A DNA stretch of 64,000 nt, taken from Flavipsychrobacter stenotrophus (GTDB lineage: Bacteria; Bacteroidota; Bacteroidia; Chitinophagales; Chitinophagaceae). The stretch's first letter is position 1, and each line of letters begins with the position of its first letter. Position numbers and translations under genes: made by a program. The DNA lies in contig NZ_PPSL01000010.1 of assembly GCF_002954265.1 (NCBI RefSeq), positions 1-64,000 of the forward strand, given 5' to 3'. The notes beneath the pieces are model-generated. The model had not been told where the DNA came from, searched no databases, and was given only the letters and a program-made list of their open reading frames with translations. Shown here one piece after another: positions 48,066 to 64,000 of the stretch.

Positions 48066-48140
48066 CGCGAGATAGAGCAGCGGTAGCTCGTCGGGCTCAT
48101 AACCCGAAGGTCACAGGTTCGATCCCTGTTCTCGCTACCA
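48066..48140 (+). tRNA. Initiator tRNA-Met (anticodon CAU), encoded CCA
   Basis: A 75-base cloverleaf with anticodon CAT at 48098-48100, acceptor arm GCGAGA/TCTCGC, T-arm ACAGG/CCTGT with TTCGATC loop, and CCA at 48138-48140. Three consecutive G-C pairs (GGG/CCC) in the anticodon stem and an unpaired first base (C1 opposite T72) are features of initiator tRNAs. The 3' half is also the antisense end of the recombinase gene, marking it as the integration site of the mobile element to its right. Confidence 0.95.
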
Positions 48141-49704
48141 AAGAGGGAACATGCAATTCAAATTGCAGTTCCCTCTTTTCTTTTTCCCCTGAAAGCCTTG
48201 CCAGTCTTGCAAAGTAACGGAATGCCACATTTACTTTTGGGGTTCGACACTCGTCTTTTTTTCGATTGTAGTATATTCCTTCAGGAAAGACCATATACTG
48301 AAGTTCTTGTCTGTCATTGTAATCAGCGGAAGCCCATTCTGGAGCGAGTTTCGAGGTTGTTCTAAAGGCTGTGTCTATGTATAAATCAAGGTTCGACACC
48401 CTATTCCCAAATTTCGCCCGTTCCTTTTCAATATCCTTCTTTTCGTCAGTGAATTTCGCCTTGAATTTATCGAACATATCCCTGGTTATTTCCTCCAATA
48501 CAAATCGTTCTTCAAGGCGTTCCAACTTCTTATCTACCTCCGCTAATTGCTTTTCGATATTATGAATGTTCTCTTCTTTCTGCTCATTCGACTTATTGTA
48601 TTCCACAATCATCTGCTCTTTTATCAGGTACTGCATCGCCTCGTCAAATTCAAGGCAATACTCTGACAACGTTAGAGCAAAACGTTCGTGAAGGGTATCT
48701 GCCCTCATATTGCAGTTGCATCCCTTTGTGTTGCATTTGTAATAATACTTCTGATTCTTGTAAGCCTTGTATGCTCTGAGAAACTGCCCACACTCATCGC
48801 ATTTATAAAACCGTTTAAGCGGTATTTCGTCATTCTCAGGATTAGTGCGATAACCCTGCTTATTTTCAGATAGAACGTCATTCGCTTCGAGGAACAGCTC
48901 TTTAGAGATCATCTTCTCATGATTACCCTCTATTACCTGTCCTTCCAGTGCGGTATGAACCATAAGACCGCAATAAAAAGGATTGCGGAAAAAGGCTGAA
49001 ATTCTCTGATTAGTTATTTTCAGCCCTTGTGCAGCAAGCCTCCTGATAATCTCCTCGCTGGATACCTTTTCCTTGACTTTCCAGTGGAAGGCCTTTTTGA
49101 GCAGCCTACCATCCTTATTGAGCACAATAGACCGCTTGCCATTGGATTTGAGAATGTCATAACCAATAGGCGGAGCAGTAGGCCATTCACCACGCAGCAG
49201 CATTTCCTTTACACCGGCCATACATTTCTCCCTGCGCTGTTGGTTCTCGTACTCGCTAAATATGAACTGTATATTTTGTTGCAGACTTCCGCTTGCCGTT
49301 GATGCATCTGTAGGTTGTGTTACGGAACAAACCACTATACCCTGCTTCTTCAGTTGCTCAGCTATGTAGATAGCATTAGCACCGGAACGGCTGAACCGAT
49401 CAACGCTATAAACTATGATGTGCGATATTTTCTCCCTGCTCTTCTTAAGAAAAGATAGCATGTTGTTGAACTGCTTTCTTTCATCGGTCTTTGCACTCTC
49501 AAACGTACCGCCGAAGCTGCCCATAATTTGAAGGTTCCCCTTTTTAGCAAACATTTCACAAGCTTTCCTCTGTGTATCGAGGCTTAAATTGTTGTCGGCC
49601 TGCTCCTTGGTTGAAACACGAGTATAGATAACGCAGTTACTTCCTTTAGTTTTTGCCTTATTTGAGCCTTTAGCAAAGGTTTTGAATAGTGTAATGTCGC
49701 TCAT
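48097..49704 (-). CDS. Large serine recombinase (integrase)
   Basis: A 535-residue site-specific recombinase. The resolvase domain carries catalytic S31 (YTRVSTKEQ) and the arginine helix VYSVDRFSRSG; a recombinase domain follows with PPIGYD and NPFYCGLMVH; a zinc ribbon (CDECG...CNTKGCNC) is near 305-340; a coiled coil fills 375-430. The last 13 codons (VARTGIEPVTFGL) and the TGA stop are the complement of the tRNA gene, the TGA falling on the anticodon loop. Such ends mark integrases whose attachment site is a tRNA gene. The gene overlaps the small upstream ORF by four bases. Confidence 0.95.
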   Translation of the reverse strand: MSDITLFKTFAKGSNKAKTKGSNCVIYTRVSTKEQADNNLSLDTQRKACEMFAKKGNLQIMGSFGGTFESAKTDERKQFNNMLSFLKKSREKISHIIVYSVDRFSRSGANAIYIAEQLKKQGIVVCSVTQPTDASTASGSLQQNIQFIFSEYENQQRREKCMAGVKEMLLRGEWPTAPPIGYDILKSNGKRSIVLNKDGRLLKKAFHWKVKEKVSSEEIIRRLAAQGLKITNQRISAFFRNPFYCGLMVHTALEGQVIEGNHEKMISKELFLEANDVLSENKQGYRTNPENDEIPLKRFYKCDECGQFLRAYKAYKNQKYYYKCNTKGCNCNMRADTLHERFALTLSEYCLEFDEAMQYLIKEQMIVEYNKSNEQKEENIHNIEKQLAEVDKKLERLEERFVLEEITRDMFDKFKAKFTDEKKDIEKERAKFGNRVSNLDLYIDTAFRTTSKLAPEWASADYNDRQELQYMVFPEGIYYNRKKDECRTPKVNVAFRYFARLARLSGEKEKRELQFELHVPSLVARTGIEPVTFGL

Positions 49705-49931
49705 GCTGCTTTAGTTTGTTGATTATCAATGTGTAGTGCAATTTTCCTGCCAGATTTTTTCCTTTTAGAAACCACACTATAAATAAACCGAGTGTATTTC
49801 TTTATTGTGTCTATCAGTTCATTCACCTGCTCATCCGTGTAGTTTTTAAATTTCTCAAATTTCCTTACTTCTTCCGGGGTGATGTCATGTGTTCTGTTGT
49901 ACGAATTTACGTTTCCTATCTTACTATTCAT
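49701..49931 (-). CDS. Small protein upstream of the recombinase
   Basis: A 76-residue basic protein (helical THDITPEEVRKFEKF and NELIDTIKKYTRFIY) whose last codon overlaps the recombinase ATG (ATGA). I recognise no family. Its size, charge and coupling to the integrase make a recombination directionality factor or accessory protein possible, but this is a guess. Confidence 0.55.
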   Translation of the reverse strand: MNSKIGNVNSYNRTHDITPEEVRKFEKFKNYTDEQVNELIDTIKKYTRFIYSVVSKRKKSGRKIALHIDNQQTKAA

Positions 49932-49991
49932 AAAGCTGCTTTGTTGTTTTCAATACAAAAATGTGGTTACTCAGACAGCCACTTTTACCAG

Positions 49992-50047
49992 GTTATGCCG
50001 AGATGTGATGAGCTGTGTTGACCATTGCTGAGTTATGTCGAAAAGTG
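49992..50047. repeat. Direct repeat GTTATGyCGAraaGTG, two copies
   Basis: GTTATGCCGAGATGTG (49992-50007) and GTTATGTCGAAAAGTG (50032-50047) differ at three or four places and are 40 bp apart, start to start. They lie in the 520-base noncoding stretch between the recombinase unit and the AbiE pair, which otherwise shows only AT-rich sequence until the operator at 50412. Protein-binding sites are possible. Confidence 0.4.
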
Positions 50048-62737: not shown

Positions 62738-62996
62738 AACTCAACGTAGTATTAATAATTAATATATTATTATTGAAAAAACCTCCAAATATTGGCAAAG
62801 GTGCAACTTAATTACTTAACAATGACGATACCTAAAACATAAAATCGCCTAAAAATATTCGATTTAAAGAGGAATATTTAAAAATATTTATTACTTTATA
62901 TTACCCAGAAAGCCGAGTATGCACCTTAATTTTACCGGCAACTTTGAAATATAGTTTTAATGTTACACGCTTTGCTGACTTATCAATTGTTTTCCT

Positions 62997-63361
62997 ATGA
63001 ATAACGGCGACATTTCATATATACTGCATTCACAGCCTTCCTTTCAAATGCTTAGGTTGCACAATGCAAAATGGGTTTTGCCTCACCTTAAAAATGATGA
63101 CATTGAAGAATTAGATGTCAATTGGATTCAGCGTCGCACATTGCCTTACGAAGAATGCGTAATGTTGATACTATTATGAGAAATTATGGCAGAATTTGAA
63201 AAAGGCGAAGATACAATTAGAAATTGATGGATATTCAAATGATGTTAACGACAAAGATGCAAGAGATTTTGAAAACCGCTGTCGAGTCTTCTTTGGTCCC
63301 AGGGTTAAGAAAGATATTGATTTTAGAGGCGCAAAAACATATTTTGCTTGAATCGGTCCCG
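62997..63361 (+). pseudogene. Broken unknown gene
   Basis: A 60-codon reading frame (start 62997, MNNGDISYILHSQPSFQML and onward, stop at 63179) is followed in another frame by coding-like sequence from about 63169 to 63351 (LWQNLKKAKIQLEIDGYSND, later FFGPRVKKDIDF), ending in TGA. Together they look like a small gene split by a frameshift. I recognise no family; the HNAKWVLPHL stretch slightly recalls DUF3375-like starts but is not enough to assign. The 259 bases before it (62738-62996) hold AT-rich sequence with inverted TTAATAAT-type repeats and the divergent R-M promoter. Confidence 0.4.
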
Positions 63362-63392
63362 GCTTAAGTAACTATTTTAAATTACCAAAATA

Positions 63393-64000
63393 ATGGAAAT
63401 TAAACGGATAATAGAATTGATTGACTTTGTTAGTTTAATATCTATAACCGAAGAAGATGTAACAACTCACGAGGAGAGGGAGTTAGGCGAATATAACGTG
63501 ATAGTGACTTACCGATATTTGGATAAGTCCTATACAACAAAAAAGCTTCATTACAAAGAGATTCACATGCAGGAAGATGTCGATGATGAAGAGAGTACCA
63601 CGGATTTTTTAGGTCACCCGGTGTACTGGTTGGATATTGAGAAGCATCTTTGGCCTAAGAAAATAGGAGAGGCGTCACTTGAAAAGATTGTAATACCGGA
63701 CATGATAAATGTGGGTGATACTGAATTCGAAAGCTTTCTAAAGTTACTTGCTAACGATAAGAACACTGGTAAAATTCAACAATTCACTGCAGAGGGGAAG
63801 TCATCAATGTTCGGCCGTAATCTCGAAACAAACAATCATTGGCATGACTTAGTTCTTTTGATTCAAGCAATAATTAACAGGGATGGCGATGAGCCGCCAA
63901 AAGAATATTTCAAGAGACTTGTATTTCAATGGAATCAGGATGGAAGTGGCAGAGTGTCATTGAAGAGAACTAATGGCAGATGGGCAATAATTGAAAATTT
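63393..64000 (+). CDS. Hypothetical protein, cut by the window end
   Basis: An open frame starts at ATG 63393 and continues through 202 codons to the window end. The product is acidic, soluble and without a signal peptide. The beginning (MEIKRIIELIDFVSLIS, then EYNVIVTYRYLDKSYTTKKL) suggests alternating strands and helices. I recognise no family. It follows a broken gene within the mobile element, and is kept because there is no stop over 600 bases and its composition is normal for a gene. Confidence 0.6.
   Translation, partial: MEIKRIIELIDFVSLISITEEDVTTHEERELGEYNVIVTYRYLDKSYTTKKLHYKEIHMQEDVDDEESTTDFLGHPVYWLDIEKHLWPKKIGEASLEKIVIPDMINVGDTEFESFLKLLANDKNTGKIQQFTAEGKSSMFGRNLETNNHWHDLVLLIQAIINRDGDEPPKEYFKRLVFQWNQDGSGRVSLKRTNGRWAIIEN

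Follow-up and report, generated by a model that had tools for sequence, protein, structure and literature searches.

A serine recombinase gene ending within an initiator tRNA gene, and a probable 28.3-kb integrative element behind it, in Flavipsychrobacter stenotrophus

The window is a stretch of 64,000 nucleotides from Flavipsychrobacter stenotrophus, comprising bases 1-64000 of a 100-kb contig (C20) in a genome of 5.4 Mb and 21 contigs. It contains an initiator transfer RNA (tRNA) gene that overlaps the end of a gene for a large serine recombinase (SR), and behind this tRNA lies the left part of a probable integrative element. The junction is composed of the following features:

48066..48140, + strand: tRNA-Met(CAT), initiator type, the proposed target gene (ARAGORN; Rfam tRNA, 65 bits)
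48097..49704, - strand: SR (Pfam Resolvase PF00239, 3e-27; Recombinase PF07508, 8e-12)
48135..48138, + strand: CTAC core, common to the tRNA end and the far-end arm, with the crossover probably in or at it
48139..48185, + strand: left arm of the element, a terminator-like hairpin and T-run directly 3' of the tRNA and within the SR coding sequence

C74 of the tRNA, at 48138, is the last base that the tRNA shares with the CTAC core. The final codons and the stop of the SR gene are read antisense from within the tRNA gene, as the original prediction from this DNA had proposed. The SR contains an N-terminal resolvase catalytic domain and a Recombinase domain, followed by predicted long helices at residues 355-402 and 408-430; a zinc ribbon (PF13408) scores 22.3 bits, under the cut-off of 25.3. 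Its predicted model adopts the large serine recombinase fold, and the best Foldseek matches are the serine-integrase complexes 9y66 and 9dxd, with 4kis at 3.5e-10. The domain order and fold are like those of the large serine integrases of A118/LI, PhiC31 and Bxb1.

Three further SR copies are present in the same genome and are 93-94% identical in the compared DNA. One is located at a second tRNA-Met(CAT), one, truncated, at a tRNA-Glu, and one beside a tRNA-Met-like fragment. The sequence from CTACCA into the hairpin is common to all SR copies of this genome, and their protein tails differ because the neighbouring DNA is read antisense.

The SR is a member of a Bacteroidota clade whose genes mostly end at the 3' ends of tRNAs. 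SR relatives (E up to 1e-80) occur in 38 of 195 genomes of the same family. A scan of named genomes yielded 80 loci, the best 80 of 532 relatives, which belong to Chitinophaga, Flavisolibacter, Pedobacter, Mucilaginibacter, Pontibacter, Agaribacillus and many metagenome-assembled genomes; the closest matches among these 80 include metagenome-assembled genomes of Taibaiella. An antisense tRNA lies at the SR 3' end in 56 of the 73 named loci where that end is present. When all sources were pooled, 131 rows gave 123 distinct SRs, 117 of them with the 3' end present and 115 aligned to residue 480 or beyond. The tRNA, accepted up to 130 bp from the aligned SR end (L253 and L260 are looser cases), is antisense in 95/115 and sense in 0/115. 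The 95 tRNAs represent 20 anticodon classes and 10 amino acids. Two SR copies, L087 (= L252) and L255, are located at transfer-messenger RNA (tmRNA) genes. Across the 80 loci, an antisense tRNA or tmRNA is found at the 3' end of 59/76 SR-like open reading frames (ORFs), compared with 0/819 other ORFs of at least 150 residues from which SR relatives had been removed.

Most of the 22 SR ends for which no tRNA was called can be assigned to a class. Two have a tRNA and a split SR (L046, L050), two are at tmRNA, two have a fragment at the junction itself, with a tRNA-Ala some 300 bp away (L242, L248), five are ends of the arm type described below (L237, L274, L284, L291, L297), and six have tRNA fragments (L015, L026, L057, L233, L238, L268).

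The SR frame is open into the tRNA in 94 of the 95 copies and in the same phase in 93. Since a fixed distance separates the T-loop from the tRNA 3' end, the phase would stay constant even without selection; more weight attaches to the open frame. A terminator-like hairpin with a T-run stands behind the tRNA in 91 copies. On a tree of 92 SRs the tRNA isotype is clustered, with 39 changes (shuffled mean 62.4; 0/200 shuffles as low), and close relatives are often at different isotypes, for example Phe and Ala.

A Pfam Recombinase search provided a comparison set of 30 loci. Its close relatives comprise five SRs at tRNAs and one degenerate copy that is not; two more loci are fragments of copies already counted. 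Among the 22 distant large serine recombinases, an antisense tRNA (for Lys, Arg, Glu, Leu, Ser, Pro or Met) lies at the 3' end in 11 and a tRNA 266 nt further on in one, while ten have none, among them the least similar, L314-L317. Use of tRNA ends is therefore wider than the pooled clade, yet not general among large serine recombinases. No SR match at 1e-30 was found in plasmid and phage collections. Viral contigs gave three SR relatives; of the two whose end is present, one has a tRNA-like end. In another genus, a 94%-identical SR (G126:C23; L235, L078, L079) adjoins chloride-channel-like and Crp-like genes and a tRNA-Arg-like fragment, and the defence pair PDC-M62A/B lies beyond the junction.

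Several comparisons place the crossover at the very end of the tRNA. In SRs that are 95% identical in protein and located at Met and Glu tRNAs, the DNA is identical only from GCTACCA on, and the acceptor stems are thus host-derived. Positions 73-74 of the tRNA are AC in 89/95 copies and GC in 6/95, all six being Ser tRNAs. The orthologous tRNA-Ala of one genus is followed by an SR in 3 of 15 genomes (14 relatives and G004); the others, among them several short contig ends, have different sequence there. This agrees with the expectation of the original prediction that the tRNA end would be differently filled in related genomes. The three SRs are those of G004, G198 and G210, the last two being distant (25% and 22% identity). 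All tRNA-Ala rows agree up to C74 and then diverge, bar one broken tRNA copy. Two genomes of another genus share the promoter of tRNA-Met, one with an SR end (L208) and the other without (L207). To the resolution of these sequences, which is coarser than a dinucleotide, the crossover probably lies within, or right next to, the common CTAC or CCAC that ends at C74; the tRNA appears to be wholly host-derived.

The original prediction expected a second copy of the tRNA 3' end to the right of the element, as in a classical tRNA island. In that arrangement the crossover would be in the T-arm, and the element would carry the tRNA 3' half and restore the gene, like the islands of tyrosine integrases. 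No such copy was found in any of 14 SR loci, allowing up to five mismatches over 11 to ~60 kb each; a crossover at the last bases of the tRNA would account for this absence, and the far end bears an arm that encodes a recombinase tail instead. In L015, L026, L233, L238, L057 and L268 only a tRNA 3' fragment and no intact tRNA stands beside the SR, as a classical island might leave it. However, partial tRNA copies also occur behind tRNAs that have no SR, and such fragments are explicable as landing sites. Near-identical SRs are found at Met and Glu tRNAs with matching acceptor stems, and an unusual T-stem base pair in one tRNA-Met of G005 recurs in the other tRNA-Met of that genome and in related genomes, which shows that this tRNA is no chimera. 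The classical arrangement is accordingly regarded as quite improbable, and a crossover in the T-loop with element-borne tRNA halves was dropped, since both the changes of isotype and the bases of the T-stem point to a tRNA of the host. Partial tRNA 3' copies are seen ~60 to 400 bp behind intact tRNAs in L203, L210, L138, L146, L147, L149, L242 and L248, and some SRs have landed on partial tRNA 3' fragments.

The far end of the element was sought by synteny of the initiator tRNA within the genus, where no conserved gene order was found, and was recognized from an arm. Five SR copies without a tRNA, together with an SR remnant on C20 after contig position 76460, share an arm in which a GTTCGA-like motif is followed, after 17 nt, by a CTAC or CCAC core. 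The corresponding distance in tRNAs, between the T-loop GTTCGA and this core, is 12 nt. Among 16 hand-picked junctions, covering one half-site only, the spacing is 17 nt in six of the arm type and 12 nt in eight that are tRNA-like. On C20 the 28-nt arm occupies contig positions 76433-76460. It recurs without mismatch on contigs C4 and C14 of the same genome, 27.9 and 28.8 kb from their SRs, and G005 contains one such copy as well. With a shuffled query, no match of six mismatches or fewer was obtained. Behind each of the C4 and C14 arms stands a terminator-like hairpin, which would be expected on the host side. In L238, an arm with one mismatch lies ~700 bp from its SR, making a very short element. 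A general form of the arm pattern was dropped as a far-end finder, since its matches were mostly chance-like.

The arms encode, in the SR frame, tails such as VGSTGEMSNQIFEDLLKIYQVAKKLGI, and the stop is at the same place in six arms. The native SR tail of 27 codons is accordingly located at the far end of the element. Beyond the attachment site the proportion of synonymous differences exceeds that of nonsynonymous ones (pS 0.53, pN 0.21; 15 non-independent pairs of six related sequences, with single pairs varying), and by this sequence measure the native tail is probably conserved as protein. The joined form is seen in L274 (Chitinophaga sp. CF118) and L237: each has a second SR beyond the arm, which makes a tandem pair of elements. 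The leading element of the L274 pair measures ~6.6 kb, and the core of its arm, CCAC, is also that of its tRNA-Phe. The far-end tail arms and these naturally joined copies suggest that the attachment site lies in the SR's own gene, which would be split on integration.

Taken together, these findings make it probable that an integrative element of 28.3 kb has its left part in the window, and that the SR which moves it has specificity for tRNA (and tmRNA) genes at their 3' ends. The SR would read the tRNA as a half-site, with its zinc domain on the T-loop GTTCGA and its Recombinase domain on the 3' strand of the acceptor. It would join the element, presumably through a circular intermediate, to the chromosome within the last tRNA bases (CTAC or CCAC, up to C74). 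With a join at this place, the tRNA would stay host-derived and the element would need no tRNA copy; it would supply its own terminator right behind the tRNA. The attachment site would be inside the SR gene, and the joined-form protein would end in the 27-residue tail encoded at the far end. Integration would leave this native tail ~28 kb away, and the frame would continue into the tRNA antisense, gaining a short new tail and a stop.

The proposed role of the zinc domain follows the LI integrase. There, according to the available text of PMC3783163, a 9-bp zinc-domain motif occupies positions 16-24 of the phage attachment site (attP) and is 5 bp nearer the centre in the chromosomal site (attB). 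The attP-type motif of the arms is likewise 5 bp further out than the attB-type motif of the tRNAs (17 and 12 nt), and it is from this same shift that the zinc domain is proposed to read the T-loop motif. As that motif is near-universal, nearly any tRNA would be usable.

Several points weigh against the proposed element and its mechanism. The element is known here from sequence, its circle, excision and activity being predicted. Five SR ends (L061, L068, L241, L249, L309) fit no class, and in three SRs (L082, L048, L261) a stop stands at the junction. Two of the 16 hand-picked junctions have no motif, and two of the 17-nt motifs are imperfect (GTTAGA, ATTCGA). The C20 arm adjoins a degraded second SR and, taken alone, could belong to that copy; C4, C14 and L238 are what ties it to the C20 element, and the C4 recombinase has no N-terminal part. 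The acceptor-like part of the C20 arm is, by eye, closer to tRNA-Arg than to tRNA-Met. The general arm pattern gave nine matches on the cargo side and one on the control strand, with a conserved tail only in L238, and far ends are known for few SR lineages. In addition, G005:C59 (L207) offers no clean empty site, being occupied by a unit without an SR.

Whether the exchange of tails has a function can be viewed in two ways. The tRNA-coded tail may be functionless, the frame entering the tRNA only through the proximity of the attachment site and the swap being neutral; we rate this as possible, at somewhat less than even. The three junction stops are consistent with a neutral swap, as are the constant phase, which alone needs no selection, and the predicted disorder of residues 506-535, which are coded by the hairpin and the tRNA. 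Against it, 94 of 95 frames are open through a hairpin of varying sequence, and the native tail seems conserved as protein. In L237 the native tail is predicted as a helix with low confidence, and the tail regions of both structure models (window SR and L237 native tail) are of low confidence. By analogy with integration-dependent immunity (as far as described in the available text of PMC9262239), it is plausible that the tail swap acts as a latch. A protein switch can tentatively be outlined, in which the joined SR with its 27-residue tail integrates and the tRNA-antisense tail latches the element in place. Almost any tRNA gene might become an anchor through the common T-loop, and arm-bearing units without an SR, such as a 2.1-kb PDC-M29 unit in G005, might insert in trans, so that integron-like arrays of defence cassettes would accumulate behind tRNAs. 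Units without an SR are observed between tRNA-Met and a far-end arm in L207 (G005:C59, 27182-29318) and at the G166 loci L202, L203 and L226, and the terminators at their two ends are alike in sequence; the G005:C59 unit (2.1 kb) carries the PADLOC candidate pair PDC-M29A/B.

The best-supported span of the element is 28.3 kb, from window position 48139 to contig position 76460, with a GC content of 36.9%, compared with 43.7% and 42.1% in the flanks. An integrated element of more than 15.9 kb, anchored at the initiator tRNA and carrying several defence systems, had been predicted, and the span agrees with it. Within the window, behind the SR, it contains:

48139..64000: within-window part of the element, continuing on the contig to 76460
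50453..51196, + strand: AbiEi antitoxin-like (PADLOC 1e-43)
51199..52176, + strand: AbiEii nucleotidyltransferase-like (PADLOC 2e-99; Pfam)
52373..52873, + strand: 166-residue protein without a Pfam, PADLOC or NCBIfam match
52984..53709, + strand: 241-residue ORF without a family match
53843..54490, + strand: 215-residue ORF with a very weak phosphoesterase likeness, under the model's cut-off
54685..56535, - strand: GajB, Gabija helicase (PADLOC 1e-221)
56520..58691, - strand: GajA, Gabija ATPase/TOPRIM (PADLOC 3e-269)
58823..59548, + strand: protein-kinase-like gene (Pkinase 2e-10)
59552..62737, - strand: type IIG restriction-modification enzyme (PADLOC 2e-237)
63393..64000, + strand: start of an McrB-like gene that ends at contig position 65549 (AAA_5 6e-16)

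To the right of the window follow, in order, an McrC-like gene (McrBC 1e-25), a 734-residue ORF without an assigned family, viperin (PADLOC 2e-142), a ZacC-like C-terminal fragment, JetD, the C-terminal half of JetC and the far-end arm. A degraded second SR stands directly after 76460, and from ~77 kb on the contig carries genes resembling host surface-protein genes. The element thus holds several defence systems side by side, namely AbiE, Gabija, type IIG restriction-modification, McrBC-like and viperin, together with truncated pieces of Wadjet and Zorya type. The AbiE pair, the Gabija-like pair, the kinase-like gene and the type IIG enzyme of the original prediction were all recovered by PADLOC and Pfam at the places given, and its claim of a stretch without housekeeping genes holds as well: none was recognized up to 76460 among 21 proteins scanned with Pfam and/or PADLOC. 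Among 20 proteins of the element, no Pfam family of relaxases or transfer genes reached E<=0.001; the 307-residue ORF of the element was covered by PADLOC only, and shorter ORFs by neither scan. Homologues of the 166-residue protein are located near SRs of the clade in 11/80 named loci, and one may guess at a directionality factor. This gene was considered as the right boundary and dropped, since G004 has defence genes beyond its homologue and the arm was found at 76460.

Alternatively, 48139-76460 could be a stack of separate insertions behind the tRNA, of which the first might end shortly beyond the 166-residue gene. The degraded second SR from 76461 on and the decay of the truncated JetC and ZacC-like pieces are compatible with stacking, and in C4, C14 and G126 the 166-residue gene, ~5-7 kb away from the SR, is followed by unrelated genes. 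However, C20 contains a single arm of this type over its 100 kb, the sister islands share the SR-to-arm layout at almost the same length, and in G004 the homologue is followed by defence genes. We regard stacking as unlikely, and retain the single 28.3-kb element. The three islands, with unrelated cargo, are of near-equal length: 28.3 kb on C20 (48139-76460), 27.9 kb on C4 (25362-53254) and 28.8 kb on C14 (164115-192870). A packaging limit would explain this and is possible, as is chance (n=3).

The cargo of the clade varies. In G004, type I restriction-modification and BREX genes, which may be cargo, come after the SRs at two Ser tRNAs. The C4 island carries DabA, PurE, PurK, Sua5/TsaC and, by eye, efflux genes, and the C14 island carries mixed genes and a type I restriction fragment. 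With a likely bicarbonate transporter recognized by eye, the C4 genes DabA, PurE, PurK and Sua5/TsaC are mostly what we take to be bicarbonate users or carriers. The description of the element as packed with defence systems hence fits this copy and not the clade, since most genes of its sister islands in this genome are of other kinds; defence is a frequent cargo and no rule.

The SR is a known kind of enzyme, a large serine recombinase; its choice of target, its split gene and the proposed exchange of tails appear to be new and set it apart from the known members. In contrast to the A118/LI, PhiC31 and Bxb1 integrases, the target here is the 3' end of tRNAs, and the attachment site appears to be in the recombinase's own gene. 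Multi-targeting large serine recombinases also include closely related enzymes that use several target genes (PMC10083194), but the motifs described in the available text are AT-rich or other, and tRNA appears 0 times in the main text. As in the Islander type of tRNA island, the integrase gene adjoins the tRNA end and the tRNA stays functional. Islander targets, according to the text available, are split and restored by island sequence, with the displaced fragment at the far end. The SR loci lack this fragment (0/14), and the enzyme is a serine rather than a tyrosine recombinase. The archaeal suicidal integrases of SSV type resemble the SR in having the attachment site within the integrase gene, which is split on integration (PMC8371274, as available). 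Those enzymes are tyrosine recombinases, have their catalytic part separated and are called exclusive to archaea in the same available text; the window SR, by contrast, is a bacterial serine recombinase, and only its last residues would be lost and others gained. In the integration-dependent immunity of mycobacteriophages, attP is likewise in a coding gene, attB overlaps a tRNA and the C-terminus is changed, but the gene altered there is that of a repressor, by a tyrosine integrase, and here that of the recombinase itself (PMC9262239, as available). No description of serine recombinases at tRNA ends with a split gene was found in the literature searched, which was in part available and covered few subscription journals; an earlier account may exist. 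The proposed mechanism is open to testing as an explanation of how a single enzyme family could use many tRNA genes through the common T-loop. It also offers a means of locating precisely where such islands end, and the SRs are candidate integrases for tRNA landing sites in Bacteroidota.

A Wadjet-like operon at 41332-47714, on the 5' side of the tRNA, contains MksE (Pfam 3e-44), DUF3584 (2e-58) and a JetD-like gene; its PADLOC JetC/JetD matches are weak. It is probably a divergent system of MksEFG/Wadjet type outside the element. The original prediction recognized this operon, and Pfam agrees on MksE and DUF3584; its use as a sign of a hotspot does not stand, given its position 5' of the tRNA and outside the element. 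The degraded second recombinase after 76460 is better evidence of stacking. Just upstream of the tRNA promoter, at 47908-47961, lies a repeat of ~50 bp that occurs in about 20 more places of the genome at 79-90% identity.

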